Source: a virus. From it: a DNA stretch of 30,202 bases. The DNA lies in IMG/VR virus record IMGVR_UViG_3300008339_007144, positions 1-30,202 of that record, one strand, 5' to 3'. A program made the position numbers and the translations under genes. The notes under the pieces are model-generated. The model was not told the DNA's origin. It worked only from the letters and a program-made list of their open reading frames with translations, and searched no databases. Every line of letters starts with the position of its first letter. Positions within the stretch are counted from its first letter, which is position 1. This document shows, in pieces, positions 170 to 30,015 of the stretch.

Positions 170-724
170 ATGAAAACCACCAAATCCAAATCCAAAAAGT
201 CCACCTCCTTCATCATCCCCAAGTCCACCCGTCCCTTCGTCAAACAGTCCCTCCTCAACGTCGTCCAATACTGCCGGGACTGTCTGGTTGCCGAGGGCAA
301 CCTACCCAACTCCGTCCCCCTCCTCCACACAACCTTCTGCCGTGAAACCGGCTCCTCCTCCCTCACCCTCAACGACTTCAAGCGGATGCTCAAGTCCCTC
401 GGCCTCAAGTCCGAACACCGTCACGTCGTCGAAATCTCCGAGTCCGAACTCCGCTCCCTCTTGGACACCCCTCTCCCGGATTCAGGGGTCCCCTCCGACT
501 CAGCCATCCCCTCCAAGAGGAAACCCAAGAAACCCCTAACCCCCAACCTCAACGTCCTCAACACGACCCCTGTGACTGCCACGCAGATTCCGGTGGACGA
601 CACCCTCGATGACGACGGTGGCGACGGGTTCGACCCCCCGCCTCCTCCGAAGCCCCTCGACGCGGATGACGTTCGCCCCTTCTCTCTTGACATGTCCCAT
701 CCCGGCACTACGACCGCTGGATAA
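170..724 (+). CDS. hypothetical protein, basic N-terminus and Pro/Asp-rich tail
   Basis: This 184-residue protein is not recognised. The first 15 residues are Lys/Ser/Thr-rich, residues about 20-90 look like a compact folded part (with CRDC and a helical segment LNDFKRMLKSLGL), and residues about 98-184 are low-complexity with KPKKP, a DDTLDDDGGD acid run and PPPPPKP. There is no clear Shine-Dalgarno sequence before the ATG, only a C-rich stretch, so the start is uncertain. Third codon positions are dominated by C, as in the neighbouring rightward genes, which supports this frame. One copy of the dispersed 17-bp repeat lies inside, at 465-481, encoding TPLPD at the junction between the folded part and the tail. 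It lies between the GroES-like gene and the recombination ATPase; no function can be inferred. Confidence 0.6.
   Translation: MKTTKSKSKKSTSFIIPKSTRPFVKQSLLNVVQYCRDCLVAEGNLPNSVPLLHTTFCRETGSSSLTLNDFKRMLKSLGLKSEHRHVVEISESELRSLLDTPLPDSGVPSDSAIPSKRKPKKPLTPNLNVLNTTPVTATQIPVDDTLDDDGGDGFDPPPPPKPLDADDVRPFSLDMSHPGTTTAG
465..481 (+). repeat. dispersed repeat copy 1 (GGAT form)
   Basis: ACACCCCTCTCCCGGAT, an exact match to the longer form of the repeat. It lies inside the 170-724 gene, read as T-P-L-P-D at the start of the low-complexity tail. Unlike most copies, both sides are C-rich on the plus strand, so no skew flip is seen here. Confidence 0.9.
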
Positions 725-730: not shown

Positions 731-1672
731 ATGACCACACCAACCTCAAACACCCAGACCCTCGAACACGGCAAACCCATCGCTGCGACAAGCCGCTACG
801 GGTTCCGAAATGTCCGCATGGTCTCAGGACCACGCCGCCTCTTCGGTCTGATCGTCGGCCCCTCCAACATCGGCAAAACCCACTTCTTCATGTCCCACCC
901 CGGGGCCCTCATCCTGAACCTCGACCTCTCCTCAACCCCCACCTCAGAGGTACCCAAAGCCTCCTACTGGCCGGGCATCTCTGAGGACGGAAGGCCGATC
1001 GACCTGAATGGTGAGCCCATCATGCTCACTTGGGATCACGTCCTCCGCATGAAGGCCGTTCTCTTGGAGGCCGCCAAGAACAATGACCCATCCCGCCCAG
1101 AAACCATCGTGATCGACTCACTGGCCGCCGCCATCTCCCTCTCCAAGGACTACGTGACCAAGGCCGCAGGCAAAACCTCCTTCGACGAACTACACGGGAA
1201 ATCTGCGTGGGATGACGTATACAATCAGATCATCGACCTCGCCAACGACCTCCGCAACCACGGCTACGGCGTCTACATGATCTGCCACATGACCCAGAAG
1301 TACATCCCTCTCGACGAAAACAAGAACATCCGTGTAAACCTCCTGACGATCACGGATGCCTTCTACCGTCGCCTCTACCACCGCTTCGAGTTCGTCGGAG
1401 CCATCTCCAAGGAAACCCGCACCGAAATGATCGACGTGGCCCAACCCACCTCCCTCAAGAACCCTGACGGCACACCCAAAATGAGGATCGTCAAACAAGC
1501 CAAGGTCATCACCAAACGATTCCTCGTGACCTCCGCACCCGACGTTGAAGACATCACGAAGGTCCGTGTCGTTCTCCCTCCAACCATTGAACTGTCAGCA
1601 TCAGGTGCATGGGAAGATTTTGAGCGGGAGTACCGCTCTGCCATGCACACGCACACCACACCCCAAAACTAA
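731..1672 (+). CDS. Sak4/RecA-like P-loop ATPase (AAA_24 family)
   Basis: A 313-residue protein with a Walker A motif GPSNIGKT at residues 43-50 and a Walker B-like strand TIVIDSL at 125-131. The core layout, a short N-terminus followed by LFGLIVGPSNIGKTHF and ALILNLDLS, is that of phage nucleotide-binding proteins of the AAA_24/Sak4 group, single-domain RecA relatives that promote single-strand annealing or strand exchange in phage recombination. The gene directly downstream (1694-2260) is a probable ssDNA-binding protein, a pairing often seen for Sak4-like ATPases, and this supports a recombination/replication role. The start is 6 bases after the upstream stop with only a weak ribosome site. 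The family is fairly sure; the biochemical role is inferred. Confidence 0.75.
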   Translation: MTTPTSNTQTLEHGKPIAATSRYGFRNVRMVSGPRRLFGLIVGPSNIGKTHFFMSHPGALILNLDLSSTPTSEVPKASYWPGISEDGRPIDLNGEPIMLTWDHVLRMKAVLLEAAKNNDPSRPETIVIDSLAAAISLSKDYVTKAAGKTSFDELHGKSAWDDVYNQIIDLANDLRNHGYGVYMICHMTQKYIPLDENKNIRVNLLTITDAFYRRLYHRFEFVGAISKETRTEMIDVAQPTSLKNPDGTPKMRIVKQAKVITKRFLVTSAPDVEDITKVRVVLPPTIELSASGAWEDFEREYRSAMHTHTTPQN

Positions 1673-1693: not shown

Positions 1694-2260
1694 ATGGATC
1701 GCAATCAAGCACTGTCCGCTCTCCGCAACATCACCAGCGATTTCAAGAAGGTCGAAGCCTCCGGGAAGGTCATCCGTCCCGGTGCTGGCAACCACGTCTG
1801 TCTCCTCACCAAACTGGAGATGGAGCCCGACACCCGCGAACTCTCGGATGGCCGAGAGATCAAGGGACTCCGCTGCACCTTCCACTACGAAACGGTGGAC
1901 CCCATGCCGGACACCGGCAAGAACCTCTCGTTCCCGGGCAAGGGTGCCTTCCTCGTCCTCGACCGTGCCCCCTACGAAGCAGCCCTGAACTCCACCGACG
2001 AAAACGTCCAGCGTCCGACTTGGAACATCAAGTCCGACGAGAGCCGTTTCAAGGGTGCTCTCAAGGCCATCCTCGGTGAATCCTACCAAGACAACCTCGA
2101 AGTGGACGTTGACGCCGTTCTCTCCCTTGTCAACGGCCAAACCTCCACCGCCGTCGAGGTCTACTGCCAATACAAGAAGGGCAAGGTGAAGCCGGGTGAA
2201 GACCCCTCGAAGGCTCCCGAATACTTCACCGACTTCATCAACCGCACCATCTCCAACTGA
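1694..2260 (+). CDS. probable ssDNA-binding protein (Sak4-associated)
   Basis: A 188-residue protein with a strong ribosome site: AAGGAG about 9 bases before the ATG. It has no motif I can name with certainty. It has an early conserved-looking segment IRPGAGNHVCLLTKLEME, a beta-rich middle (CTFHYETVD, GAFLVLDR) and a C-terminal strand VEVYCQYKKGK, which could form an OB-like fold. Its place immediately after the RecA-like ATPase is where phages often carry the cognate single-strand binding protein (DUF669/DUF2815-like proteins). The assignment therefore rests mainly on neighbourhood and is moderate to weak. A structure-based comparison showing an OB fold would settle it. Confidence 0.45.
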   Translation: MDRNQALSALRNITSDFKKVEASGKVIRPGAGNHVCLLTKLEMEPDTRELSDGREIKGLRCTFHYETVDPMPDTGKNLSFPGKGAFLVLDRAPYEAALNSTDENVQRPTWNIKSDESRFKGALKAILGESYQDNLEVDVDAVLSLVNGQTSTAVEVYCQYKKGKVKPGEDPSKAPEYFTDFINRTISN

Positions 2261-2273: not shown

Positions 2274-2304
2274 CCCCCACCAAACCCTAACGGGATCGTG
2301 GGGG
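2274..2304 (+). promoter_or_regulatory. hairpin covering the ribosome site of the 2311 gene
   Basis: CCCCCAC at 2274-2280 pairs perfectly with GTGGGGG at 2298-2304; inside the loop CCC (2285-2287) can pair with GGG (2292-2294). The 3' arm is the only G-rich sequence before the ATG at 2311, about 6 bases upstream, so the stem would hide the ribosome site. There is no T-run after the stem, so an intrinsic terminator is less likely. This is the whole content of the 50-base gap between the two genes. Confidence 0.4.
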
Positions 2305-2310
2305 CTTCCC

Positions 2311-2787
2311 ATGTCAACCCCCTACAACAACTGGCTCCTCAACATCCAGCCAACCTACTTCACCCTTCGATGGGTCAAACAGCCTCGCTCCCTCCCCAAC
2401 CCAACCCCTAACGACTACATCCTCACCCCCATCATCTTCCACCCCTCTCCCGATTCGGACCCCTACCTCGCATTTTTCCTTGACCTCCATCACCCACACA
2501 CCGTACCCTCCCTCATCACGGAAGGGCTCAAGCATGTCCACTCGCACTTCACCTTGCCTCGTCCCGAACGAATCTGCGTCGAACCCTGCCACAAACACCC
2601 GGACGACCCGGGCCTCCTCCACATACCCACCCCAGCCCGGTGGATCACAGCCTGCCTCCGACGTTCACGCGGAACGCCCTACCACCCACTCCTCGAAAAC
2701 CTCCTCCTCCACCCAAAGGAAGTCCCCACGACCTGCTACCCAATCAAACCCCTCACAGGGGTTTACCGCCTCATCACCCTCCTATGA
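2311..2787 (+). CDS. hypothetical protein
   Basis: A 158-residue protein I do not recognise. The frame has a strong C preference at third positions from the ATG through to the TGA at 2785-2787, which argues that it is truly translated. A GGGGG ribosome site sits about 6 bases upstream but inside a possible hairpin. Residues 1-60 contain several aromatic positions; the middle has clustered His, Cys and Pro residues (RICVEPCHKHPDD near residues 86-98) that might bind metal. Its last 254 bases overlap a second rightward frame that starts at 2534 and ends in a sigma-like domain. The junction CTC CTA TGA C could also be a +1 shift point joining the two. Plus-strand sequence here is extremely G-poor. 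One repeat copy lies inside at 2439-2454. Confidence 0.5.
   Translation: MSTPYNNWLLNIQPTYFTLRWVKQPRSLPNPTPNDYILTPIIFHPSPDSDPYLAFFLDLHHPHTVPSLITEGLKHVHSHFTLPRPERICVEPCHKHPDDPGLLHIPTPARWITACLRRSRGTPYHPLLENLLLHPKEVPTTCYPIKPLTGVYRLITLL
2439..2454 (+). repeat. dispersed repeat copy 2 (GAT form)
   Basis: CCACCCCTCTCCCGAT, differing from the consensus only in its first base. It is inside the 2311 gene and read as H-P-S-P-D. The sequence to the right stays strongly C-rich, so this copy has no skew flip. Confidence 0.9.
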
Positions 2788-3238
2788 CGCCTACCGGAGG
2801 GCCTCCGAAATCACCATCCACCGCTACCGCCTCCACAGCGTAGACACCGAAGACCTCATCTCCTATCTCTGGGAAGTCTTCCAAGGCCGCCTCCCCCCCT
2901 TCTCCGCCCTTCTCACCACCGCCCGCAACTACATCTTCAAGTCCCTCACCCGCAATCTCACCGACCCCAAAGCCAAACCCCTCCCCTCCACACCAACAAT
3001 CGCCGCCCCAGAACCCCCCATCGGGAGAGGGGTGTCTCTCACAGATAAACAACTCACGACTCTCCAGTGGCAGACCGCTTTTCTCCTGAGTCGTGGGTAC
3101 ACCGTGAACCAAATCGCTTACATCTTCGGCACCCATAGGAACTCTGTCCATGACAAACTCAAGTGCATCAGGCAACACCTCTCAGGGGGTACCGCAAAAC
3201 GCATTGGAAGTTCTCGACGGTGGATTTGTTCGGCTTGA
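2534..3238 (+). CDS. sigma-70-like factor, regions 2 and 4
   Basis: From the ATG at 2534 this gives 234 residues. Residues about 84-142 resemble sigma region 2 (the series EDLISYLWEVF at 106-116, then FSALLTTARNYIFKSL); residues about 169-216 resemble region 4, with a helix-turn-helix RGYTVNQIAYIFGTHRNSVHDKL. This is the layout of small ECF-type sigma factors, which direct RNA polymerase to specific promoters; a role in phage gene timing is inferred. The start is the problem: coding-like composition in this frame begins only near 2783, where no ATG, GTG or TTG exists. ATG 2534 has a good ribosome site (GGAAGGG, 7 bases) but gives an 83-residue Ser/Thr/Pro-rich leader overlapping the previous gene by 254 bases. 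A repeat copy (3020-3035) lies in the linker between regions 2 and 4. The end overlaps thyX by 89 bases. Confidence 0.6.
   Translation: MSTRTSPCLVPNESASNPATNTRTTRASSTYPPQPGGSQPASDVHAERPTTHSSKTSSSTQRKSPRPATQSNPSQGFTASSPSYDAYRRASEITIHRYRLHSVDTEDLISYLWEVFQGRLPPFSALLTTARNYIFKSLTRNLTDPKAKPLPSTPTIAAPEPPIGRGVSLTDKQLTTLQWQTAFLLSRGYTVNQIAYIFGTHRNSVHDKLKCIRQHLSGGTAKRIGSSRRWICSA
3020..3035 (-). repeat. dispersed repeat copy 3 (GAT form)
   Basis: The reverse complement of ACACCCCTCTCCCGAT. It lies in the sigma-like gene, read I-G-R-G-V in the linker between regions 2 and 4. Plus-strand composition changes from very C-rich (2941-3000: 4 G, 32 C) to nearly balanced (3061-3120: 14 G, 18 C) across it. Confidence 0.92.
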
Positions 3239-3899
3239 GTTAGTACACGGAGACGACCTCATGGTGGTGAACGCCGCCCGTGTCTCCTTCGGCAAACGCT
3301 CTGAATGGTCAAAGCAGGGCACACCCGAAGAACCGCACGCCCGCGTCCTCGAAGACAAGGACGCCCGCCTCATCTCGTACCTCGCCAAGAACGGGCACTG
3401 GACCCCCTTCGGCCACCCACAAATCAGTCTCCACATGAGGATGCCTATCTTCGTGGCCCGACAGTTCATGCGGTCCAACGTCGGCATCGTCTACAACGAA
3501 GAGTCCCGCCGCTACGTTTCCACGGAACCCTCCTACCACTTCCCAGCCGGGTGGCGTTGCAAACCTGAAGGCTCCATCAAGCAGGGGAGCGGCCCCCAAC
3601 CCCTCCCCCCAAACCTCCAAGGGGAGGCTTTCGAGATGTACCTTGAGGCAGTCCAGAAGTGCATCGACACCTATAATGAACTCATCAAGATGGGGGTGGC
3701 CCCTGAGCAGGCACGCATGGTCCTCCCCCTCTCCACCTATACTGAGTTGTGGGCCACGATGTCACTGGCGGCCTGTGCCCGTATCTGCAAACTGAGGATG
3801 GACCCTCACGCCCAGAAGGAAATCCGAGATTACGCCAATGCGATCTCATCCCTCGTTCAACCGTACTTCCCTGTGTCTTGGCCAGCCCTCCTCTCCTGA
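3150..3899 (+). CDS. thyX: FAD-dependent thymidylate synthase ThyX
   Basis: ThyX makes dTMP from dUMP using methylene-tetrahydrofolate and a flavin, supplying thymidine for phage DNA. From ATG 3150 it is 249 residues, close to the family norm. Seen in order: NAARVSFGK (41-49); NGHWTPFGHPQI (81-92), the family HxTPFxH region; RQFMRSN...NEESRRY (104-122), the ThyX signature; and EQARMVLPLSTYTELW (186-201) followed by RMDPHAQKEIR, the dUMP/FAD-binding C-terminal part. The signature is atypical: the usual RHR is RSN. ATG 3150 has AGGA about 10 bases upstream and overlaps the sigma-like gene by 89 bases; a TTG at 3204 would match the usual N-terminus (LEVLDGGFVRL) and reduce the overlap. The dNMP kinase follows, forming a small nucleotide-metabolism block. 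Confidence 0.9.
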   Translation: MTNSSASGNTSQGVPQNALEVLDGGFVRLELVHGDDLMVVNAARVSFGKRSEWSKQGTPEEPHARVLEDKDARLISYLAKNGHWTPFGHPQISLHMRMPIFVARQFMRSNVGIVYNEESRRYVSTEPSYHFPAGWRCKPEGSIKQGSGPQPLPPNLQGEAFEMYLEAVQKCIDTYNELIKMGVAPEQARMVLPLSTYTELWATMSLAACARICKLRMDPHAQKEIRDYANAISSLVQPYFPVSWPALLS

Positions 3900-3935: not shown

Positions 3936-4505
3936 ATGAGTCCGACAAACATCTTTGAGTATCAGAAGCCTGTGATTGTTGGGTTGAGGGGGAGGGCGGG
4001 TGCAGGGAAAAGCACACTCGCATCCCACCTCAATGAGATGGAGACGGATGTTGTGAGGATGTCGTTTGCGGGGCCGATCCGCGATGCTCTCCGAACCCTC
4101 GGTATCACCAAGCAGGACTCCCCACAACTGTACCGCAAACTCGCACAGACGATCGGGCAGTCCGCGAGGGATGCCGACCAAGACCACTGGGTCAAGTTGG
4201 CGAAGCAAGGGATCGAACGCGAATGTATGTCGGGCAGACACAAGACGCCGATCATCGTGTTCGACGACGTACGATACCCAAACGAAGTGATCCTGTGTGA
4301 CCTCGTGTTCTACATCACCCCGGTCGGATTCAACCCGCTGGACCTCGGGGACCTCGCCAATCACGAATCCGAGAAGATGAACAGGAAGGGTCCCGGCGAC
4401 TCCATCCAGATTCTAAACGCAGTCGGGAGAGGGGTGTACGCTGCGGAGGAGATTCTGAAGGCGGTCAGGGCAGAGGTGTCTCGTCGAAATCCTCGTCGTC
4501 GCTGA
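3936..4505 (+). CDS. deoxynucleoside monophosphate kinase
   Basis: A 189-residue P-loop kinase, inferred to phosphorylate dNMPs to dNDPs (T4 gp1-like). The P-loop GRAGAGKST is at residues 19-27 and DDVRYPNE at 110-117 is the motif typical of phage dNMP kinases; helices with repeated Gln/Arg (about 60-80) fit the substrate region. The ATG at 3936 is chosen because GGAG lies 6 bases upstream; an in-frame TTG at 3924 would include the ribosome site itself. Codon use changes markedly from thyX: the first 100 bases are G/T-rich (GTG ATT GTT GGG TTG AGG) immediately after repeat copy 4. A second repeat copy lies near the C-terminus (4422-4437). It is the last rightward gene and meets the metallophosphoesterase tail to tail. 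Confidence 0.8.
   Translation: MSPTNIFEYQKPVIVGLRGRAGAGKSTLASHLNEMETDVVRMSFAGPIRDALRTLGITKQDSPQLYRKLAQTIGQSARDADQDHWVKLAKQGIERECMSGRHKTPIIVFDDVRYPNEVILCDLVFYITPVGFNPLDLGDLANHESEKMNRKGPGDSIQILNAVGRGVYAAEEILKAVRAEVSRRNPRRR
4422..4437 (-). repeat. dispersed repeat copy 5 (GAC variant)
   Basis: The reverse complement reads ACACCCCTCTCCCGAC. It is inside the dNMP kinase gene, read V-G-R-G-V near the C-terminus. Plus-strand counts are G29/C41 for 4301-4420 and G46/C23 for 4441-4560, a flip in the same direction as at plus-oriented copies. Confidence 0.9.
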
Positions 4506-5351: not shown

Positions 5352-6089
5352 TTAGAAGGGCTGGAAGGACTCGAAGGGTTGAGCCCGTCCAGACTCCTGC
5401 ATCTTCTCACGAATGAACTGTGCCATTTCCGGTGTGAGTTGTGGTTGGGAGGTTCGGTCCCTGTTTGCAGCCTTCTGTACACTTACCAGTTGGGCGGGGT
5501 CCCTCAAGTTCAGGTTGTTCATGGCGGACCTCTCGACCATCGCAGCGTAGAGCGGACGGTACTCTTCGGGAATCCTGTCCAAAATCCGTTCGGCCCTCGG
5601 GGTATTCCTGTTCCTCATGGCAGCCAAGAACTGATCTTTCCCGACAAGGAGGGGCATCTTGTGACGACGCTGGAACTCCGAGGCGATTGCGTCGGCCTTG
5701 TCCTGATCGTTGGCGAGGACCGCGTTGATGTAGTTTCGACGGGCCCCCACAATGAGGTCCCTCTGTGCGGTCAGGTAGCGGTCGAGTTGACCGGGCTTCT
5801 GGTAGGCCGCCATGTCCACACCAAAGGACCGCATCACAATGTCTTTGGGGTCACGGTAATCCACCAGCGACCCGTCCGCCGCGAACACAGGCACCCTACC
5901 CTGCTCATCACGGGACTCCCAATCCGCAAATGTCTTCTGTCCAAGGGGAACAGAGAGCCATGAGGGGAGAGCAGGAGCCCCACCCAAAGCCTTGCTGAGG
6001 GCGACCCCACCGGGCAGCAAACCACGGGAGGCCGCATCTGCCAGCATGGCACGGTCCTGTTCGAGGACACCACGGGCCGCCTTGTACAC
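5352..6089 (-). CDS. large virion protein, C-terminal part (after frameshift)
   Basis: This 245-residue reading frame continues the 5834-8869 protein in the -1 frame. It is open from 6125, but the first start codon (GTG) is at 6089 and has no ribosome site. The frame gives a well-formed helical sequence (ALDIVYKAARGVLEQDRAML, then GARRNYINAVLANDQDKADAI), while the other frame becomes Cys/Arg/Pro-rich nonsense after about 6103. Adding one C to the CTCCCG at 6106-6101 restores a continuous protein reading PIPFLPALDIVYKAARG, about 1,170 residues in total. The last part is Gln/Arg-rich and ends about 10 bases before the metallophosphoesterase. Whether translation really crosses, or a base is missing from the sequence, cannot be told from here. 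Confidence 0.65.
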   Translation of the reverse strand: MYKAARGVLEQDRAMLADAASRGLLPGGVALSKALGGAPALPSWLSVPLGQKTFADWESRDEQGRVPVFAADGSLVDYRDPKDIVMRSFGVDMAAYQKPGQLDRYLTAQRDLIVGARRNYINAVLANDQDKADAIASEFQRRHKMPLLVGKDQFLAAMRNRNTPRAERILDRIPEEYRPLYAAMVERSAMNNLNLRDPAQLVSVQKAANRDRTSQPQLTPEMAQFIREKMQESGRAQPFESFQPF

Positions 6090-8869
6090 GATGTCGAGTG
6101 CGGGAGGAATGGGATGGGTCCGTTGTCACCGGAGAAACGCTGTCCAACCACATCGGTCGCAGCGGACACACCGAGACCCCTCTCCAAGTCCACACCCGCG
6201 AGGTTCTTGCCCAACTCATAGACGATCGCCGAGAGACCGGCCATCCTTGTGAAGTCCACAACGCCCGCAAACCCCCCAAAGTTCACCTCTTGACCCAACA
6301 CATTCCGAACGCCACCACCAATCTGGGGGCTGACGGCCAAGAAAGCGGAGGCCGACCTCGTACTGAAGGAGAGGAACTGGCGGGCCAGCGGGTTGCTCAA
6401 CCAGCGGGTCCACGTCGGCGTCAGATTCGGGATGTCGCTCTGGAAGGCCACAGGAGTATTCATCAGGGAGGAGCCAAACTGCGTCTCCTGAATCATCCTC
6501 TTGATGCTCTGCTTGGCGACAGCCTGATCCACCACACCGGCCTTCGTCAGAGCAGCCTCAGTGGCGTGTGCAACCACCAGCCGGTTGAACCACTCGGCCT
6601 TCTCAAAGCCCTTCATGGAGAGGTCGCCGATCTGCCCGAAGATGCCCGGCCTCTCAAAGCCACCGGACCCTGTTGCAGCAATCTGGTCCAGAACCTCGTG
6701 AGGGTTCGCCCCAAACTGCAACAGGTCCTCCCCTCCATAGTTCATAAAGCGACCGAAGGCGGACTCCATGACAGCCTGCCGTTCAGCAGCCGAGATACCA
6801 CGAATGACCCCACCCTTGGCAGACCGAAGTTGGGCGTACTTCGACATGTCCTGAAACGCCTTCTGATACCCCTCCAGCACGTTGTCGAAGCCGAGCCACG
6901 ATGTACCATGCAGAAGAGGCTGCGTCAGGTTGAGCAGAATACTGGCGGGATTGAAACCCAAATGGGTCCCGTACAGATGCGAGGCGATGCCTTGGGTGAT
7001 GGCACGCCCACCCCTCACCGGCATGTTCTCATCGGCGAGATATCGAATCTCGTCCACCATCCTCTTCCCCACGGAGCCACCGTTGGTCTCCATCCAGTTG
7101 GCCATCCCCGACTCGCCAACCCTCTTCAACATCCCCCTGTTATTGATGACCATCGCCTGCGTCAGCCCATACCTCACGGAGGTCCGCCCGAAGGACGCGG
7201 GTAGCAGAAGGTCCACCACGATATCACGGTGGTACTGCTGAGGGAGCATGGACCAAGAGGCCCACAACGCATCCGAGTTGTTGAAGTACCCCTTCCGTCC
7301 ATCAGTCGGGGCCTTGTACCCCTCCACCTCTGGATGCATGATCGTCTTGATATCACTCCCGTCCACCAGTACCTCCCCACTGGCGGTCGCCACCTTGTAA
7401 GTAGTCCTCTGGAGTTCACCCACATCCTTCCCCACAGGGGCGACGAACCACCCGTATGTCCTCGCCGTTCGGTCGAAGTACGTCTTCAGCGATTCATAGG
7501 GGTTCATCCTCAGAAAGGTCACCCCTCTCCCGGATGAGGAGGTGAGTGCTTCCTGTGACTTGCGGACCTCACCCAAAAACTCCTCGGTGAGGGCACCAGA
7601 CCCCACGTTCTTCTCGGCGAAGGTGGCAAATGCTGTCCAGTCATCCGGGTGATAGAGGCCCACGTCACGGGCCCTCGCCAGAATGTTCGGAGAGGTTGTG
7701 ACAATGCGGGCCGTGGCCGACCTCCTTGCATCCTCGAAGGGACGGATGGTCCCGGTGGCATCCACCGTCTCCATGTAGGCCCTCGGAAAATACGAGGAGC
7801 CCTGATCCACAAAGGTCTTCGAGGCAATCTCGGCAAACTGCTCCACGCTGACGGCACCGTCATCCATCAACCCCAACATCTCGGGGCCGAAGATCGTCCG
7901 AGCCACATCCAGAGGGGTGTCACCACCAGTCATCCGATACCTACCATCAGAAAACAGTTTGCTCTTGAGACCCTCGTGGAGGTTCTTCAACTTTCGGCTG
8001 TCCACTTTGAAGACGCCCTCGCTTGCATACAGAGCCTCATCACCGAACAGCCTCACCTTCCTCTGCTCCAAACTCTTCTGGATAGCAGAGACAAGCGGAT
8101 CAGCCACGTCCCCCAAATACTTCTTGAGGACGGCTCGCGGATCGTAGTTGATGAGGGCACCCCTCTCCCGATTCACGAGTTCGACACCCGTGAAGACCCC
8201 TTCTGCGTTCCGCTGGATCACGGGGTACACGGTGGTTTTGGCTTGGTCCCATCCTTCGATGGTGGCCTGCAAGTTCATCAGAACACCGGAGACCATCTCG
8301 CGGTCCTGCGGGTTCCTGATCCTCCTCACATCGAGGGTCTTCGAGGAGCCCTGCCAAGGCATCTTTTCAAGGGCCTTCTGCCAAACCTCCCCAGTCACCA
8401 ACCTCTCCTCCCTCGTGAGGTTGTCAGCGGCGGACATCGCGTCCTCGAAGATTCGAGTGATCGGCGTACCGCTGAGTTCTGTGGTGGGTGCAAGCAACCC
8501 TGCATAACTGAGGAGTCCACGGCCCTTCTTGACGAAGGCACCGTACGCCCCGGCCTCGTCGAAGATGTAGCGGGCACCCCTCGAAAGTGCAGACTGGGCA
8601 CCGGGAGCCCCCATAAACATCAGCCAGACAAAGGGGTTCGTCCCGATATCAATGAGGGCGTTGGTCACAGGGTTTCCCCCTGCGGCCTGCTTCATCCTCG
8701 TTCGGATCGTGTCCCTCTCAGCGAGGGTGGTCTTGGTGGGGTCGAAGACCGCAGCCAATGACCCTTTCACCGTCACCTCCCCATCCAACAACATCGAAAA
8801 GAGCAGGTCCGGCTTCTCATAGAAGGACACGCTCTCGAATGGGGATGGAGTGATAGCGGTCTGGGTCAT
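5834..8869 (-). CDS. large internal/ejection-type virion protein, main part
   Basis: As read, 1011 residues; the genuine part ends near residue 920 (about 6103), where coding moves to the -1 frame and continues to 5352. I recognise no enzymatic motif. It is a long, mostly helical protein with hydrophobic segments (NPFVWLMFMGAPG near residue 80; FGGFAGVVDFTRMAGLSAIVYEL near 870-895) and a segment LARQFLSFSTRSASAFLAV near 840-858. Similar segments occur in very large phage proteins carried inside the virion and ejected with DNA. Position and size support that role; it is an inference. The ATG at 8869 has GGAGG 8 bases upstream, directly after an intrinsic terminator, so it may be transcribed separately or by read-through. 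Two repeat copies lie inside (7519-7535 and 8157-8172). Confidence 0.65.
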   Translation of the reverse strand: MTQTAITPSPFESVSFYEKPDLLFSMLLDGEVTVKGSLAAVFDPTKTTLAERDTIRTRMKQAAGGNPVTNALIDIGTNPFVWLMFMGAPGAQSALSRGARYIFDEAGAYGAFVKKGRGLLSYAGLLAPTTELSGTPITRIFEDAMSAADNLTREERLVTGEVWQKALEKMPWQGSSKTLDVRRIRNPQDREMVSGVLMNLQATIEGWDQAKTTVYPVIQRNAEGVFTGVELVNRERGALINYDPRAVLKKYLGDVADPLVSAIQKSLEQRKVRLFGDEALYASEGVFKVDSRKLKNLHEGLKSKLFSDGRYRMTGGDTPLDVARTIFGPEMLGLMDDGAVSVEQFAEIASKTFVDQGSSYFPRAYMETVDATGTIRPFEDARRSATARIVTTSPNILARARDVGLYHPDDWTAFATFAEKNVGSGALTEEFLGEVRKSQEALTSSSGRGVTFLRMNPYESLKTYFDRTARTYGWFVAPVGKDVGELQRTTYKVATASGEVLVDGSDIKTIMHPEVEGYKAPTDGRKGYFNNSDALWASWSMLPQQYHRDIVVDLLLPASFGRTSVRYGLTQAMVINNRGMLKRVGESGMANWMETNGGSVGKRMVDEIRYLADENMPVRGGRAITQGIASHLYGTHLGFNPASILLNLTQPLLHGTSWLGFDNVLEGYQKAFQDMSKYAQLRSAKGGVIRGISAAERQAVMESAFGRFMNYGGEDLLQFGANPHEVLDQIAATGSGGFERPGIFGQIGDLSMKGFEKAEWFNRLVVAHATEAALTKAGVVDQAVAKQSIKRMIQETQFGSSLMNTPVAFQSDIPNLTPTWTRWLSNPLARQFLSFSTRSASAFLAVSPQIGGGVRNVLGQEVNFGGFAGVVDFTRMAGLSAIVYELGKNLAGVDLERGLGVSAATDVVGQRFSGDNGPIPFLPHSTSCTRRPVVSSNRTVPCWQMRPPVVCCPVGSPSARLWVGLLLSPHGSLFPLDRRHLRIGSPVMSRVGCLCSRRTGRWWITVTPKTL
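7519..7535 (+). repeat. dispersed repeat copy 6 (GGAT form)
   Basis: TCACCCCTCTCCCGGAT. It is inside the large virion gene, where the minus strand reads S-G-R-G-V-T. The composition is C-biased to the left (7381-7500: G30/C41) and balanced just to the right. Confidence 0.9.
8157..8172 (+). repeat. dispersed repeat copy 7 (GAT form)
   Basis: GCACCCCTCTCCCGAT. It is inside the large virion gene, where the minus strand reads N-R-E-R-G-A, a different frame from copy 6 in the same gene. Confidence 0.9.
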
Positions 8870-15640: not shown

Positions 15641-18423
15641 CAGATACTCCTGAAACTTTGGTTGGCGGTGCCCAGAATCGAGCCCTGAGCCATCACCCCC
15701 AGCAGATTATAGTTGAGGTCCGAACAGAAAATCTCGATCGAAGGACTTACCATGAAGCCTGCGATGCTCGAACCACCCTGAATCTGAGAGGTGAGGTCCC
15801 TAAAGGAGGTCCAGTACGTCCCCTCATTGTCCTTGATGGATTGAGCAACGGTCCCATCCGTCTGGAGAGGCGTACCAAAGGACCTCGGAGCACTCTCATT
15901 ACCCCTATACACAGACGCCTTGTACCTACCTGAAACCGTTGCGGAGATACCCTGCTTGAAGTAGGCATCATCGACATCCGAGAAGCACGCCCCAATGGAA
16001 CTGATAGACTTCAACCTGAAAAAGTTGACCCCTCCAAAGTCCTGCCCATTCACCTCAATACCAACCGGATGACCAACCCACCTCATATAAACAGGGGAGA
16101 TGGAAACTGTATCCCCATTCCTGAAGTTGGTTGAGTTGGTGATGGTGATGGTCGATCCAGAAATATCCGTAATCGTACCCGTCTTACCAAAGTTGGAACC
16201 CCACGTCAAGTTGTACATGACTCCACCCAGAATAGAGTCGGATGGAGCATCTCCCCCCGTCAGGTCGAAGTTGGAGCCCGTCTGATTGGCCAACACAAAC
16301 CGGGAGTCACCACCAGCATCGAGAAGCCTGATGGCTCTCAGACCATTCAAACTGCTGTTGGTCGTTGAAGTGATGGTCTTGGAGCCCGTTGCATCCATCA
16401 CATAGATGTCCGCACAGAACGCAGCCGTGGACCTCCGACAGTTCAGGAAGAAGGCCCTCTCCGTGCAGTCTGCCTCGACGCTCGCAGCGACCAAGGGGTT
16501 CGTCGGCCACACCCCCCTATCCGAATACATGAACGGGATATCCCTCAGTTCAGTGACCCGAGAAGCATCAAGCCACAGGGTAATCATCGGATCAACGCCA
16601 CGCACCCACACAAACACCGCACCGGCATAGGGGTCGTACGTCACAAACGCAGGGTTCCCGGCCTCCAACCCACCAGCCCACAGATTCTTCACCACGTAAT
16701 CACAGGACCTCACATCATCCATATCACCATTGACATTGACGGCTTTGAGGCCCTTGGTCGTCAGGAAGTACGCAAACGAACCCACACTGGTGGCGGCCAT
16801 CCTCCCACCAATAACCCCGTACCCCTCATGGATTTCCTGAATCTTGATGTAGATGGACTCCCTGCGGATATGGTACATCCTGTCACGAGAGAACCCGATC
16901 ACATTCCCTGACACCAGCACGAACGTCTGCACCTCATTCGACGGGATGTTCGGAACATACCTACTCGTGGGCGGGAACAACTCCGGTGAGCCCTCAGTCA
17001 GCGTTGACCACCTGATCTCACCCAACGCGAGCGTGTTCTCCCCGACATCTCCGGTACCCTTGCGAATACCGCTGACCAACACACACCCCTCATAGTTGAT
17101 GGCAACACCACCCGGAGGCACCCTCGGATCAAACTCGGGCCTCTCAATGTAGGTGTCCTGAAGCACGAGGGCCTTATCATCCAGCCTGATCCAATACACA
17201 GACTGTCCAACATTCGATGCAGCAGGGGTGGTCGGATACGCCGGATCGACCGCCCACTCATCCAGATTGATGACTGCCTCCTGCGAAAGGATAGCGGACG
17301 TGAACGTACCACCGCTCCCCTCAGTCCTCGCACTCCTGAAGATGATGGCCTTATCGTACTTCGTCTTCTCGTAGGCAATCTCGATCCCGATGTACTTGTA
17401 AATGTCATCGGTAGTGGTAACTGTGGGGGTCCCGGCCTGCCACTGACTGTCAGGAGTCTCACCGCTGCCGGGAGCGAACGGATCGAAGTCAGGGGGCCTC
17501 ATCTGCCCAATCAAAGAGAGTGGGCCCTTCAACCCCGTCTTACTGCTCAGCAGTTGGTAGGCGAAAGCGTACGAGCCCGGGACAAGGACCCGACACGCTC
17601 GATCAAGGTCAGCAGCAGTATCATAATCACCGGGGATGGTCGTCCCATGCACAGTACCCGCACCCGTAAAACTTCCGGGTGACAACGTGTAAGGAGGGTG
17701 GTGAATCTGTCCACGCGAGTACGCCCCCGCGTACCCCCCCGAATACGAGGACAACTGCCCAATGTTGAGGGCGAGGTTGGGGTCGAGGAGTTCGGGCCTG
17801 TTCCCCGGTCCAGTCCTCGTGGTCGTCCCAATGCCCCCAACACACACCTCATCGTAGGCCGGGGAACCCCCCGTCTCCCTCACATAGAAGAGAATCGGGT
17901 CCCTGCCCTGCATGTAGATGTAGACCAACCTTCCGTACACCACGACATCCCAAGGCTTTGAGGCGTCAACCTCTTCAACCAACTGCCTCGAATACATGGT
18001 CGTGGTACCAGTCAGGGAGTTCCTATACTGGATGTGGATCGAGGCGACACCATCGTAACCACCCAACACCCTGTACACAAACCCATATCCAAACCCACCG
18101 TCACCGATCCGGAAACAGACGGACCTAAACTCATCAATGGTCCACGACGTACCCGGATCACCAGCCATCCACGGATGGGTCGGAGAGGTTGGAGCAGCCC
18201 CGTTGTATGTCCACGGGTTGTTCTCCTCCTCTTCCGGCTGAAGAGAGGCAACCTTCAAGAAGCCGGGGAAGGGCCTGAGCCCACCATCAAGCCGCCCGTC
18301 AACCCCCACCAGTTCAGAGGCCATCCCCTTCTCCGTGGAGACACGGTTGGCCCTCCGATCCTCCGTCACCTGAAGGAGGGGGTACATCCACGTCACACTC
18401 TGCGTTTCGGTTTCCTTCGGCAT
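15640..18423 (-). CDS. large tail protein (tail-tube/stabilisation type)
   Basis: A 927-residue protein and the largest uninterrupted tail gene. Near the N-terminus GVDGRLDGGLRPFPGF (about 39-54) is like the start of tail tubular B/stabilisation proteins of podoviruses; the rest is beta-rich with many Gly, Tyr and Thr (SVYWIRLDDKALVLQDTY; VFVWVRGVDPMITLWLDAS). T7 gp12-like proteins form the tail nozzle and are similar in size. The start is taken at ATG 18423, which has GGAGG 6 bases upstream; an in-frame TTG at 18438 would place the ribosome site inside the gene. It follows the adaptor-like gene cluster and precedes internal proteins, the usual podovirus order. Confidence 0.55.
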   Translation of the reverse strand: MPKETETQSVTWMYPLLQVTEDRRANRVSTEKGMASELVGVDGRLDGGLRPFPGFLKVASLQPEEEENNPWTYNGAAPTSPTHPWMAGDPGTSWTIDEFRSVCFRIGDGGFGYGFVYRVLGGYDGVASIHIQYRNSLTGTTTMYSRQLVEEVDASKPWDVVVYGRLVYIYMQGRDPILFYVRETGGSPAYDEVCVGGIGTTTRTGPGNRPELLDPNLALNIGQLSSYSGGYAGAYSRGQIHHPPYTLSPGSFTGAGTVHGTTIPGDYDTAADLDRACRVLVPGSYAFAYQLLSSKTGLKGPLSLIGQMRPPDFDPFAPGSGETPDSQWQAGTPTVTTTDDIYKYIGIEIAYEKTKYDKAIIFRSARTEGSGGTFTSAILSQEAVINLDEWAVDPAYPTTPAASNVGQSVYWIRLDDKALVLQDTYIERPEFDPRVPPGGVAINYEGCVLVSGIRKGTGDVGENTLALGEIRWSTLTEGSPELFPPTSRYVPNIPSNEVQTFVLVSGNVIGFSRDRMYHIRRESIYIKIQEIHEGYGVIGGRMAATSVGSFAYFLTTKGLKAVNVNGDMDDVRSCDYVVKNLWAGGLEAGNPAFVTYDPYAGAVFVWVRGVDPMITLWLDASRVTELRDIPFMYSDRGVWPTNPLVAASVEADCTERAFFLNCRRSTAAFCADIYVMDATGSKTITSTTNSSLNGLRAIRLLDAGGDSRFVLANQTGSNFDLTGGDAPSDSILGGVMYNLTWGSNFGKTGTITDISGSTITITNSTNFRNGDTVSISPVYMRWVGHPVGIEVNGQDFGGVNFFRLKSISSIGACFSDVDDAYFKQGISATVSGRYKASVYRGNESAPRSFGTPLQTDGTVAQSIKDNEGTYWTSFRDLTSQIQGGSSIAGFMVSPSIEIFCSDLNYNLLGVMAQGSILGTANQSFRSI

Positions 18424-18434
18424 CGTACCCTCCT

Positions 18435-19211
18435 TCAAGCCTCAATGTGATTGGAGAACCCCGGCATGGCCCTCGGACACTCAAGATACTCATACCCGAG
18501 TTTGTGGTCCAACCTCGCCAAGGCCGTATCACCACACCCACACTCCCCACAATAATAGTTCCCCGGCTCCTTCTGGGATTCCTTCCGGGCAGGACACGCA
18601 CCAGTAACCCCATCCCCATGACAGGACGCCATCCGCCTGTCGTACATCTCCTTGGACACCCCTCTCCCGGATGTGAGGGATTTGCCGAGAGAGGTGGCTT
18701 TGGACCAAGTGGAACGGACAAGGGACCAGCGGGTTGAGGGTGATTTGGCCATCCACTGTTCACGTGGGGTTAGGGAGGCGAGCCTCCGATACACCTCGTC
18801 GCTGCATGAGAAGGCTTCGGCTGCGGCCTTCAAGAGGGGCAACGGGAAGGAGGGAGCCATCTCGATCAAGGAGGTCTTGGCCTCTTCCTTCGTGAGGTGG
18901 CGGCCCATCACCGTGAGGGCCACAACGGGCGGAAGACTTTTGAGGTCACGCTTTGCACTTTCGACGGCGTTCTTGACGACCTGCTGACGGAGTTGATGGG
19001 CTTCCTCGGTGGAGGGGTTTTTGGCCCAGCAGGCATCGCAGACCACAAGAGGGACACGTACGAAAGTGCCGAACTCCACGTCCACGAACCCACAGGAGGG
19101 GTTGCCGGGGGTGTATCGTCGGGCAGGACACTCCTGCATCCGAGTCAACTCCCGAACGTCAACCTTACTCGCAGAAGCAGCAACCGGATTGGATGATTTG
19201 GGTGTATCCAT
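18435..19211 (-). CDS. Cys-containing, zinc-ribbon-like protein of unknown function
   Basis: A 258-residue protein. There are two Cys-rich parts: N-terminal CPARRYTPGNPSC...CDACW (about residues 28-61) and C-terminal CHGDGVTGACPARK...YYCGECGCG...CPRAMPGF (about 198-252), with a helical middle. The Cys spacing suggests metal binding, but I cannot assign a family. The start overlaps the Cys-rich upstream gene by 47 bases. A repeat copy at 18656-18672 encodes S-G-R-G-V just before the C-terminal Cys part, and base composition flips there within the gene. Role unknown; it lies between adaptor-type and tail genes. Confidence 0.55.
   Translation of the reverse strand: MDTPKSSNPVAASASKVDVRELTRMQECPARRYTPGNPSCGFVDVEFGTFVRVPLVVCDACWAKNPSTEEAHQLRQQVVKNAVESAKRDLKSLPPVVALTVMGRHLTKEEAKTSLIEMAPSFPLPLLKAAAEAFSCSDEVYRRLASLTPREQWMAKSPSTRWSLVRSTWSKATSLGKSLTSGRGVSKEMYDRRMASCHGDGVTGACPARKESQKEPGNYYCGECGCGDTALARLDHKLGYEYLECPRAMPGFSNHIEA
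18656..18672 (+). repeat. dispersed repeat copy 10 (GGAT form)
   Basis: ACACCCCTCTCCCGGAT, exact. It lies inside a single gene, at the junction of two apparent domains. Counts are G22/C49 for 18541-18660 and G48/C23 for 18673-18792: a near mirror-image switch within one reading frame. Confidence 0.95.
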
Positions 19212-19977
19212 TTGAGCAGCAACAGACCGTCACTTGGTAGGGGCAGGCCACAAACGCAGAACCACAACAATCTCCGCAGGTCACAATGGCCTCACTACAC
19301 TCATCGAACCAGCACCCACACGCTTGTGCATTGACGGCTGCACAGAGACCGGGGCACTGAGAGCAGGCACCTCCAGCCGTGGCAGGCGGAATCGGGCCCG
19401 ACATCGTTGAGAGCATGTTGAGGGCTTGGTACCAGTACGCGGTATTGTAGTATGAGGGGTCGTCAGGGGGAATCTCAGGACCGGGATTCTCATTGAACTT
19501 CGAGAACCCAGCCACACAACTTTCCACCTGAGTAGGGGTACAGCCGGTCCCACCACCCCCTCCAGTCCAGCCCGGAATCTCCGGGGGAGGAGGAGGGTCG
19601 ATTGTGCCGGGAGTGCCGTCCGGTCCCGTCGTCCTCCCAGAAGGAGGAGGAGGCACAGGAGGAGGAGCGGAGGTGGTGGGGCTTGACGGGATCAACTCAG
19701 AAACGCCGTCCTGTGCCGATGGGGCGGCGAGGGGGGCCCTTCCGGGCGGATTGATGGCGTTCACGATCGAGCCGATCGGTTCGATGCCCTCGTAGACACC
19801 GGCCCTCGTCCTCTGAACAAGGTGGGGTGTTACCACGGGAACAATGCCCTCACGGGCCCGCTCCTGAAAGAGGCGGTCGCGTAGCCTCTGATACTTCTCG
19901 TCGGACCACCCGGGGGTGAACCCTTCGAGGAAGCGGGCCATCGTCGCCCTTCCGTTGCCGGACGTGTCAAATGGCAT
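19165..19977 (-). CDS. Cys-rich protein with poly-Pro linker
   Basis: A 270-residue protein. Residues 1-60 are helical and charged, about 85-150 are Pro/Gly-rich (PPPVPPPPSG, PPPPPEIPGW), and the C-terminal ~130 residues hold 18 Cys, 16 of them in the last ~70 residues (patterns CSQCPGLC, CGDCC, CCCSNG, CCFCE). This resembles a disulphide-knotted or multi-metal domain; no family is recognised. There is no signal peptide. It overlaps the adaptor-like gene by 11 bases at its start and the next gene by 47 bases at its end. Given its neighbours it may be a virion protein, but the reducing cytoplasm makes so many cysteines unusual for a phage structural protein. Confidence 0.6.
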   Translation of the reverse strand: MPFDTSGNGRATMARFLEGFTPGWSDEKYQRLRDRLFQERAREGIVPVVTPHLVQRTRAGVYEGIEPIGSIVNAINPPGRAPLAAPSAQDGVSELIPSSPTTSAPPPVPPPPSGRTTGPDGTPGTIDPPPPPEIPGWTGGGGGTGCTPTQVESCVAGFSKFNENPGPEIPPDDPSYYNTAYWYQALNMLSTMSGPIPPATAGGACSQCPGLCAAVNAQACGCWFDECSEAIVTCGDCCGSAFVACPYQVTVCCCSNGYTQIIQSGCCFCE

Positions 19978-20881
19978 AGTTCCCGTCCCTCGGAGTTACC
20001 CACTGTGAGAACGGATTGTCAACGGTGTGCCTCTCGAAGCCACCGGGCCTCTTGTTGTTGAGGTTCGCAAGTTGATCACCGATGGTCTTGATGGCCGAGC
20101 GATAGTTCAACTGGAGTCCCTGCAACTGTGTACCCGGGGTCCTCCGAATGGTGGCAAGGCGGATCGCCGATGCCAAAGCGATGGCGTCCCACAAAGCCTG
20201 TGACTGCCCCATCGGAACCACCTCAACCTTGTGGGTACCGCTCGGGGTCGGATCGAAGTTCCTCCTCAAGGTGAACGTCCTCGTCGTGAAATCGTACGCG
20301 GAGATCACCCGCTCTTGGATTTCAGCGGAAGACGTGTTCGGAATCAGCCTGAGCATGTGACCAACGTACGCCGACTTCCTCCGATCCAATGCCCCGAGCG
20401 TCGGAGTCGCCGGAACAACCACGGTCGAGGCCGTCGTACTCGTCACATCTCCATAGAAGGGCATCGCATCCCCATTATTGATGTACCAGAGCGTGAAGGT
20501 CCCACCAGAGGAGGGTGCGGGTCTCACGGCCAGCACGTTCCCTTCGACGGTCCACCCCGGCCCAAACGGATGCGTCTCCCCGCGAGGGGTCCACTCCGTC
20601 GTCACAGTGCCGTTGGCATCCGTAATGCCCAACCTCACAACCTCACCCACACAGGGCGGCAGGTCATAGAACTCCTGATTGGCCACAATGTTGATAGACA
20701 CCCGGTTGTACACCGGATTGTCCAAAAAGAGGCTCAGCCGTCCCTGCACATCAACCATCGCCGGTGTGATGATGTGACGGATGATCCAGTCCGCAGTATA
20801 CTTCGCGTCCGTGTCGGGATCGTCCGTGTAGGCCCGCACCCTCTCCAGAATCGTGTACAACATTGAACCACTGGAGTGCAT
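19967..20881 (-). CDS. head-tail adaptor / tail-tubular-A-like protein
   Basis: A 304-residue protein. The N-terminal helix (LYTILERVRAYTDDPD) is followed by a long mixed segment with VNRVSINIVANQEFYDLP-type strands and charged helices (ALWDAIALASAIRLATIRR) near the C-terminus. The N-terminal helices, then an xxFYDLPP strand and beta domain, resemble phage adaptor or tubular-A proteins that sit under the portal; assignment rests on this pattern and on gene order between capsid and large tail protein. The ATG at 20881 has GGGG just upstream; a second ATG at 20863 is possible. Confidence 0.5.
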   Translation of the reverse strand: MHSSGSMLYTILERVRAYTDDPDTDAKYTADWIIRHIITPAMVDVQGRLSLFLDNPVYNRVSINIVANQEFYDLPPCVGEVVRLGITDANGTVTTEWTPRGETHPFGPGWTVEGNVLAVRPAPSSGGTFTLWYINNGDAMPFYGDVTSTTASTVVVPATPTLGALDRRKSAYVGHMLRLIPNTSSAEIQERVISAYDFTTRTFTLRRNFDPTPSGTHKVEVVPMGQSQALWDAIALASAIRLATIRRTPGTQLQGLQLNYRSAIKTIGDQLANLNNKRPGGFERHTVDNPFSQWVTPRDGNYAI

Positions 20882-20890
20882 ACATTCCCC

Positions 20891-21466
20891 TTACGGAAGG
20901 ATCAGTTTCGGAACCGAAATCACACGCCCAGCCGCCCTACTCAGAAGGTCCCTCGCGGTATCCCTCACGCGATCCCTGTCCGTGAACGACTCCACCTTCA
21001 TGGATGACAGCGTGAGGTTCACGTCGTCCTGCGTCCAACCAGTCTGCTTCCTGAGCCACTTCCCGAGCCTCTTCTTCTCGTCCTGAATACCCCTCAGCAG
21101 ACTCTCCCTGAGCCTCCTCCGCTCTACGATCTTGCGGATTCTCCGACTGGCGGTCGTCCGCATATTCCTGAAGAGGTTGCCCATGAGGTCCGGGTTCGGT
21201 CCAAACCCCTCATCTGGATTCCCCTCAAAGACCTCGACCTCGTGCATCAGTCCCGGCTCCCCACACCTCCGAGGCTTCCTGATCCACTGGGCAAGGACCC
21301 AGTTTCCAGTTCTCGCGTGCCTATAGGTAAACACGTCTTTCCGATTACCCATCCTCGAAACAACCCCAGCCAACCTCGTGTTCCGAATCTGGTGGATTCG
21401 AGGGTGGAAAGTGGTTCCGTTCGCAGAAAGGTAGGAGTCCGTCACAGGATCATAAGTGGTTCTCAT
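20891..21466 (-). CDS. small basic protein downstream of capsid gene
   Basis: A 191-residue, Arg-rich protein, not recognised. Residues 85-160 contain dense basic helices (ASRRIRKIVERRRLRESLLRG, KKRLGKWLRKQTGW). The ATG at 21466 is chosen because GGAG lies about 10 bases upstream; a longer frame reaching 21565 would begin inside the terminator hairpin. It is the first gene after the capsid-gene terminator, 9 bases before the adaptor-like gene. Basic character suggests contact with DNA or with the acidic capsid, as in head-completion proteins, but this is an inference. Confidence 0.55.
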   Translation of the reverse strand: MRTTYDPVTDSYLSANGTTFHPRIHQIRNTRLAGVVSRMGNRKDVFTYRHARTGNWVLAQWIRKPRRCGEPGLMHEVEVFEGNPDEGFGPNPDLMGNLFRNMRTTASRRIRKIVERRRLRESLLRGIQDEKKRLGKWLRKQTGWTQDDVNLTLSSMKVESFTDRDRVRDTARDLLSRAAGRVISVPKLILP

Positions 21467-21532
21467 GGTTGATGTTCTCCGGGTTCCCCCTCTACGCCCC
21501 ACAATCATAGGCGGATCACTGAAAATGAAAAT

Positions 21533-21558
21533 GGGGGACCCCCGCAAAGAGGTCCCCC
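21533..21558 (-). terminator. intrinsic terminator downstream of the capsid gene
   Basis: On the minus strand GGGGGACC (21558-21551) pairs with GGTCCCCC (21540-21533) across a 10-base loop, followed by the T-rich tract ATTTTCATTTT. It stands 43 bases after the capsid stop (21601). A terminator after the capsid gene is typical of T7-like phages and lets capsid mRNA be made in excess over tail genes. The rest of the 134-base gap up to 21600 shows no other feature. Confidence 0.85.
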
Positions 21559-21600
21559 ACACCACTCAGAGGCCCGCCCGAGCCTCACCCAGAAGATCAA

Positions 21601-23199
21601 TCAGGCCACGTAACTGCCGCTCACAGCGGTGTCACCGTAGGTCCTGTCCTCAGTGCAACCAGTCAGCAGGAGACCCGCAGGCTGCTCGGCCATGACCTGC
21701 ATACACAGGACACCGGGCATCTGCGAAGCCTCAGTGAGGCGACCGCTCGCATCCGTGATCGGGAGACGGTTGCTGCCGTGGCCCGCCAGAATGTTCGCCA
21801 CAAACTTGAAGGGAGCGAACGCCGGGACCTGACCGAGGCTCTGGGCCCCAGCCGGATCAGGCGGAACGATCCTCTTCCAGTTCTGGCCACCCTTCTTGTG
21901 GCCCAGCACAACACCACTCTCAATGAATAGGGAGGTGTAGCCGGTGTAAGACCGACCGTCATACTTGATCTGGAAGCCTTCCTCAGAACCCTCATTGTTG
22001 AGGCTCGACAGACGGTTGGTCCGATCAATCTGATACTGACCGATCTTCTGAGCCTCATAGGCCAGCCAGACACCATCAGACGCCACGAGGAAGTCGATGC
22101 TCTGACCGTACTTGTCCTTGGCCCTGTGGAACGCACGGAGGTTCCTGCGAAGCACCTGCTCCGTCAAAACCCCGTTGATGTTCTTCAGATAGGACCGATG
22201 CTCAGGGTACTTCACCACGTCGATCTTGCCGTCCTCAGCACCCTCGGGACCACCACCCACAGCCTCATCACCCAGCAGATACCGCAGCGAGGCAGAGTCC
22301 GCCGAGTTCGTCGAGAACTTCATGTAGGAGCGGTACCCAGCGATACCACGGAAACCACTGGTGGCCTTGCTGTTCGCATAGACCACGATGTCACCGTTGG
22401 TCACACCAGAGAGGGCCGCCTCCGAAACCAGCACAACGAACGGACCATTCGCATCACCGATCTCATCGACCAGTTCAACGTACGTCCGAATCCTCGTACC
22501 GGAAGCCTCATTCCTGCGGGTAGCACCCGTGCTGTCATACACGTCCACCCTCTCACCAAGAATGAAACGCTCAACAGCCTTGTTCGTCGGGTAGAACTTC
22601 GTCCGATACACGGTACCACCCGAACGACCAGTACCAGTCGAGGTCGCCACATTGGAGATGGCGGCCAGCCTATACGAGTCATTCTGGCTGGTATAGAAGG
22701 CGTTGGTCAGGCGATGCACAATATTCCGTGCAAAGCCCTCCATCCTCGGAGCCGTAATCTCCGTGAGCACCGAGGACGTAGCCTCAGCCCGGAGTTCGGC
22801 CATCGACACGGGCATGTTGGTATTCATGCTCCGCATCGGAATCGTCAACCTTACGGGGATCGGGCTCACCGCCTCGGTCGCATCCGGGAACGTCCTTGCG
22901 TAGTTCCTGCGGATCATGCGATCACCAAGGTCCGTGACGTTATCGTCACCGAACAGCCCAAAGTCGTTCTGGCTGGGGCCCCAACCCGGCTCGATCACAC
23001 CACCGAACATGTGGTTGAAAATCTTGTGGATCAGGTAGCCACGACCCAGTTGGTCCGACGGAACAACACCCTGACTGGAGGCGATCATGTCCCTCCAGAA
23101 GGGGTCGATCTGCGGCATGAAGGTCGTGATGTTGGTGTTCAGGACTTCCTGAATCGCCGTACGGTTGGTGTCAAAGACGGAGCCAATGGTTGCAGTCAT
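21601..23199 (-). CDS. major capsid protein
   Basis: A 532-residue protein. It is placed directly after a scaffold-like gene and directly before an intrinsic terminator, with its own promoter and structured leader, as expected for the most abundant virion protein. The sequence is mixed alpha/beta with few low-complexity parts (MIRRNYARTFPDATEAVSPI; VRLTIPMRSMNTNMPVSMAE, a likely spine helix or E-loop region; NIVHRLTNAFYTSQNDSYRL). I do not recognise a specific family, but size and context fit an HK97-fold coat protein. AAGGAA lies 6 bases before the ATG. Confidence 0.75.
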   Translation of the reverse strand: MTATIGSVFDTNRTAIQEVLNTNITTFMPQIDPFWRDMIASSQGVVPSDQLGRGYLIHKIFNHMFGGVIEPGWGPSQNDFGLFGDDNVTDLGDRMIRRNYARTFPDATEAVSPIPVRLTIPMRSMNTNMPVSMAELRAEATSSVLTEITAPRMEGFARNIVHRLTNAFYTSQNDSYRLAAISNVATSTGTGRSGGTVYRTKFYPTNKAVERFILGERVDVYDSTGATRRNEASGTRIRTYVELVDEIGDANGPFVVLVSEAALSGVTNGDIVVYANSKATSGFRGIAGYRSYMKFSTNSADSASLRYLLGDEAVGGGPEGAEDGKIDVVKYPEHRSYLKNINGVLTEQVLRRNLRAFHRAKDKYGQSIDFLVASDGVWLAYEAQKIGQYQIDRTNRLSSLNNEGSEEGFQIKYDGRSYTGYTSLFIESGVVLGHKKGGQNWKRIVPPDPAGAQSLGQVPAFAPFKFVANILAGHGSNRLPITDASGRLTEASQMPGVLCMQVMAEQPAGLLLTGCTEDRTYGDTAVSGSYVA

Positions 23200-23280
23200 A
23201 TGTCATTCCTTCTTCGTGGTCCCCCGAACAGGGGGTTGGGGCTTTCCCCATATGTTCAGGGGCAGGTGTCCAACGCGAAC
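23200..23280 (-). promoter_or_regulatory. structured leader of the capsid mRNA
   Basis: On the minus strand the leader contains GGGG-AAAG-CCCC as a small hairpin and flanking GAACA...TGTTC arms, with CCCCC-TGTTC-GGGGG as a competing hairpin just before the ribosome site. These could form alternative structures or protect the mRNA end. The ribosome site (AAGGAA) lies beyond the last arm, so the structures need not block it. Stability or translational control of capsid mRNA is inferred. Confidence 0.4.
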
Positions 23281-23287
23281 ACCCTCC

Positions 23288-23293
23288 ATTATA
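23288..23293 (-). promoter_or_regulatory. extended -10 promoter upstream of capsid gene
   Basis: The minus strand reads TGGTATAAT, a perfect extended -10 (TGnTATAAT) for a housekeeping sigma-70 polymerase. The hexamer 17 bases upstream is GGAAAA, a poor -35, as is common for extended -10 promoters. It lies in the 141-base non-coding gap before the capsid gene; transcription would start near 23281, giving an ~80-base leader. Repeat copy 11 sits just upstream. Confidence 0.6.
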
Positions 23294-23319
23294 CCAAACA
23301 AGCCTCCCTCTTTTCCACG

Positions 23320-23335: not shown

Positions 23336-23340
23336 CGGGT

Positions 23341-29956: not shown

Positions 29957-29975
29957 CTTTTCATCTCCTTATTGG

Positions 29976-29991: not shown

Positions 29992-30015
29992 GTCGGGTGG
30001 GGGTTTGGGTGTGGT

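Follow-up and report, generated by a model that had tools for sequence, protein, structure and literature searches.

How can a gene be translated when it appears to have no place to begin? The DNA analysed here, which we call the window, is a whole IMG/VR virus record of 30,202 bases from a phage of a little-known group, and two of its open reading frames meet in a way that raises exactly this question. The first of them, ORF1, ends in CTC CTA TGA C. The second, which we refer to as the sigma-like gene, reads TAT GAC GCC TAC CGG AGG from position 2783, lacks any ATG, GTG or TTG close to where it begins, and lies in a frame without a stop from 2291 to 3235. Further upstream this frame offers ATG 2534 and TTG 2480 as candidate starts, and the only plausible ribosome sites for its in-frame start codons lie far upstream, within ORF1. 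There is an ATG at the junction itself, overlapping the ORF1 stop, but as sequenced it is one base out of frame with the sigma-like gene, its own frame runs into a stop after 19 codons and it has no Shine-Dalgarno of its own. A first-pass annotation had described the missing local start, and its coordinates all hold on a direct check of the sequence; it had also proposed three ways out (a +1 frameshift, a long overlap between the two genes or a missing base), each of which is taken up below. The RNA here may also be structured: a strong hairpin, AAACCCCTCACAGGGGTTT, lies at 2747-2764, about 20 bases upstream of the ORF1 stop, and CCCTCC at 2777-2782 is able to pair with GGAGGG at 2796-2801 around the stop and ATG.

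The surroundings of the junction are collected in the table below. The minus strand of the window carries mostly structural genes, and the portal, capsid, adaptor and tail proteins gave no PHROG match, several of them being without relatives among sequenced phages. The start of thyX, the gene that follows the sigma-like gene, is itself ambiguous: ATG 3150, with an AGGA ribosome site, would give an 89-nt overlap with the sigma-like gene, and the alternative, TTG 3204, would place the N-terminus nearer to the beginning of the Thy1 domain.

Features of the window at and around the junction of ORF1 and the sigma-like gene
Feature	Position	Strand	Basis or remark
Early operon gene	170-724	+	
Sak4-like gene	731-1672	+	
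SSB-like gene	1694-2260	+	Name from weak similarity to the relatives' next gene
ORF1, 158 aa, adjoining the Sak4-like/SSB-like pair	2311-2787	+	Open frame; TGA 2785-2787
Sigma-like/HTH gene body, ~150 aa, without a local start codon	2783-3238	+	Open frame; weak C-terminal HTH
ATG overlapping the ORF1 TGA (ATGA), most likely the true start of the downstream gene	2784-2786	+	Sequence; modelled frame change agrees
Stretch where losing one base would account for the lack of a start	2787-2838	+	Reading of the sequence, inference; the ATG 2784 frame meets a stop beyond
ThyX-type thymidylate synthase	3150-3899	+	Pfam Thy1, E=4e-46, from residue 33
dNMP kinase	3942-4505	+	
Large virion-protein gene, frame-broken at ~6105-6113	5352-8869	-	Single open frame in relatives

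Which of the two frames is coding, and over what part of its length? By codon-position composition ORF1 is coding-like (third-position C 0.63, second-position T 0.28), and by the same measure so is the region after 2783, over about 150 codons (third-position C 0.56, second-position T 0.25). Upstream of 2783, the sigma-like frame has a second-position C of 0.59 and a second-position T of 0.07, which is the pattern of a shifted frame. We then described the locus with codon models that allow a single change of frame, trained on three sets of sequences (the operon's other genes, the flanks of the locus, and both together). The best points for the change fall at 2782-2785, at the ORF1 stop and the ATG, and the 95% intervals for the three training sets are 2746-2785, 2737-2785 and 2752-2785. 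Since the frame changes within 2737-2785, coding in ORF1 continues as far as its stop, where the next gene begins, which speaks for two adjacent genes rather than for a 254-nt overlap.

That overlap had been one of the proposals of the first-pass annotation, and its ingredients are present in the sequence as described: ATG 2534 is a canonical start, GGAAGGG stands 7 nt upstream of it, the frame is open throughout and no indel is needed. The sigma-like protein would then carry an 84-residue Ser/Thr/Pro-rich leader encoded within ORF1 (2534-2786). We nevertheless think it unlikely. The leader has the shifted-frame composition just described, and a change of frame as early as 2533 is about 9-13 log units worse, a cost that only disfavours the overlap, in a codon model that does not permit two frames to code at once. 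Moreover, when ORF1 was resampled with synonymous codons, its +1 frame was fully open in 11-15% of cases, an open +1 frame being commonplace over ORF1 because C-ending codons make stops rare there, and a start with an SD-like motif turned up in that frame in 7-17% of the resamplings. The open frame and the start with its ribosome site are thus both within chance, and therefore neither counts as evidence for the long overlap. The same composition bears on a bleaker suggestion, that the gene in the sigma-like frame has decayed or is not expressed. Such a gene might well have neither a start nor a significant homologue, as is the case here, but some 150 coding-like codons without an internal stop make this very unlikely.

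Is the downstream gene a sigma factor at all? The first-pass annotation had seen a sequence like sigma region 2 in its N-terminus, a label that we could not substantiate: neither Sigma70_r2 (PF04542) nor Sigma70_r4_2 (PF08281) matched the window even at E<=10, and the region 2 resemblance is one seen by eye. What was found is a weak helix-turn-helix at about residues 86-137 (TIGR02937, E=0.069; several HTH families, E 0.004-0.2). The protein does share with the sigma-70 family, and with its ECF-like members, a region-2-like acidic helix and an ARN-type stretch, both by eye, as well as the C-terminal HTH, and it differs from that family in giving no significant match to the Sigma70_r2 or r4 models. 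Its alignment with relatives is unreliable over the N-terminal half, and a single-sequence structure model had a mean pLDDT of 46.7, too poor for comparison. The putative assignment to sigma is, in other words, a weak one, which draws on the weak C-terminal HTH and the N-terminal resemblance by eye.

Relatives of the phage allow the layout of such genes to be compared. A terminase profile led to a family of at least 245 related contigs, of which 80 were kept, many with full synteny; at least 245 virus contigs share the terminase, portal, capsid and SU10-like adaptor with the window (records G001 = L034-L036; L037-L115). Matches to ThyX belonged to unrelated phages, and among known phages there was no relative of the sigma-like, ORF1, virion or Sak4-like proteins. 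Sigma-like genes occur in 11 related records (L157-L167, from G009, G013, G022, G023, G025, G029, G038, G042, G047, G050 and G054) at two places in the genome other than that of the window gene, either before a nuclease gene or between capsid and adaptor. They resemble sigma region 4, carry the N-terminal motif DHIGFL..W and are possibly a transcription switch of this little-known phage group. In all 11 the gene is separate and has a local ATG, GTG or TTG where the preceding gene ends or just past it. The stop-to-stop frame of several of these genes reaches 70-86 codons back over the preceding gene, as the frame in the window does, yet the conserved part starts only after that gene, which again tells against a start at ATG 2534. 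A profile of these genes, built with the window left out, matched the window gene with an E of 1.1, which is not significant, and the relatives' genes therefore back the general layout only and not orthology.

ORF1 is no easier to place. Domain searches gave it no family match. In the relatives, the SSB-like gene is followed by an ORF of about 160-200 aa that has its own stop and no sigma-like part; a C-terminus that by eye seemed to be shared between this ORF and ORF1 received no support from profile and shuffle tests. The pair of ORF1 and sigma-like gene, or their junction, was found in no relative. Among viral contigs, close relatives of ORF1, the sigma-like gene, the Sak4-like gene and the capsid included none spanning the locus, and a search of genome contigs for the junction pattern, tolerating 0-3 bases, found no second copy.

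Could the ribosome simply skip a base? The first-pass annotation had noticed that a TGA followed by C, read with a +1 shift, leads exactly into the sigma-like frame and would yield a protein of about 308 residues, and this is indeed what the sequence at CTA TGA C (2782-2788) allows, a one-base skip at the ORF1 stop giving 158 + 150 = 308 residues. The model for such an event is the programmed +1 frameshift of prfB, whose signal runs AGGGGG (SD-like), then three bases, CTTT, GA and C, the SD-like and CTTT elements both being nearly universal in prfB (PMC12421855). The junction in the window resembles it in having a TGA stop and then C, with +1 entering the downstream frame. It differs in lacking both the CTTT slippery run and an AGGGGG three bases before the slippery site, and in having no counterpart among the relatives, none of which has this gene pair. 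CTA would re-pair poorly on TAT, and upstream of it there is no purine-rich SD-like stretch: the bases at 2765-2781 (ACCGCCTCATCACCCTC) do not contain the motif, as the first-pass annotation had itself cautioned, and the nearest run of G, AGGGG at 2757-2761, is more than 20 nt off. Because CTTT and an internal Shine-Dalgarno are both absent, and no relative has an ORF1-sigma fusion or shares the junction, the frameshift is unsupported, and we consider it extremely unlikely.

A further reading, which was not among the options of the first-pass annotation, is that translation begins at a near-cognate codon. GGAGGG at 2796-2801, 9 bases past the ORF1 stop, is a strong SD, and after 8 nt it is followed by an AUC at 2810, so that spacing is ideal, the frame is correct and no indel is needed; the protein would be slightly shorter. 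But bacterial genes that naturally start with AUC are very rare, an SD followed by a cognate or near-cognate codon appeared in 9% of synonymous resamplings of the sigma-like N-terminus, and a start at AUC 2810 would leave out the 'YRR' residues that resemble the beginning of sigma region 2. We regard this start as quite unlikely. Taking together the ways in which the sequence could be correct and the start unusual, that is, AUC 2810 with its SD freed as ribosomes finish ORF1, or a +1 shift that produces the 308-residue fusion, we would give them a slim chance.

Is the sequence, then, exact? A frame-tracking model run on the window flagged one other break, at about 6112 on the minus strand, in the large virion gene, which is split between two frames. 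In 13 relatives, both parts of the virion protein find their match in one and the same open frame, and the proteins of 12 relatives align to the window in two frames at this break and nowhere else in the window; G001, which is more distantly related, likewise reads through the site in one ORF. No classical slippery heptamer is visible at the break on direct reading. One open frame in the relatives as against two in the window means an indel in the window contig: it carries at least one that breaks the frame of a conserved gene, be its origin an error of sequencing or assembly or a mutation. Even so, the contig does not have frequent indels. The record L009 (IMGVR_UViG_3300031951_013511) is the same phage from a different sample, and it matches the window over 17888-30024 with 99.74% identity, 32 mismatches and no gaps in 12,137 bases, a stretch that ends short of the locus in question (2311-3238).

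An indel could have acted at our junction in one of two ways. ORF1 and the sigma-like gene could be a true fusion, one protein of about 308 aa, with the indel at or just before the apparent stop of ORF1. The contig does have an indel elsewhere, and one change of frame would link the two parts. Such a fusion, however, needs a break within roughly the final tenth of the more than 300 nt over which both frames are open, exactly at the ORF1 stop, and the relatives keep their sigma-like genes apart from the gene that follows the SSB-like gene (the homology of ORF1 to the latter, as noted, is not significant). We hold a fusion to be decidedly unlikely.

The other way is the one that we favour, and we think it probably correct: the sigma-like gene is an ordinary gene whose ATG overlaps the ORF1 stop as ATGA, and one base has been lost from the contig just after this start. 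ORF1 and the sigma-like gene would then be neighbours in a phage operon, ordinary genes packed tightly together. ORF1 would be translated to its TGA, and ribosomes would probably re-initiate at the overlapping ATG 2784; the product would be a small protein of about 150 residues that binds DNA and is perhaps sigma-like, with ThyX next. The start would look out of frame because one base has dropped out within some 50 bases past the ATG, either through an error of sequencing or assembly or through a recent mutation. Among the three options of the first-pass annotation this is the best supported (the frameshift is unsupported, and the 254-nt overlap has a leader with the composition of a shifted frame and a ribosome site within chance), because the contig has a demonstrated frame break in its virion gene and because coding changes frame at the ORF1 stop, both frames being coding on their own sides of it. 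The missing base itself is one that we infer, since no second copy of the locus was found.

How does this compare with what is known? ATGA coupled pairs are common in phage and bacterial operons, and the junction resembles them in being part of a tight, co-directional operon, with an ATG over the TGA and no SD at the ATG. It differs from them in that the ATG, as sequenced, is not in frame with the downstream gene and meets a stop after so few codons. Taken by itself the ATGA is weak evidence, requiring just an A before the TGA. A survey of more than 200,000 frame transitions predicted in prokaryotes put the singletons that lack homologues down to gene overlaps in 33% of cases and to indels or errors of sequencing in 67% (PMC3711429). 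The transition in the window is like these GeneTack singletons in having been found in a single genome, without a conserved partner, and a second break exists in the contig; it is unlike them in lying between two putative genes, so that homology could not validate it.

If the sequence should prove to be exact, either a non-AUG start or recoding that does not use the prfB elements would add a new example of unusual translation, in a phage regulator. The likelier lesson is a practical one: single-base indels in assembled virus contigs imitate recoding, and such artefacts may be recognized cheaply, by looking whether some conserved gene elsewhere in the contig is frame-broken as well.
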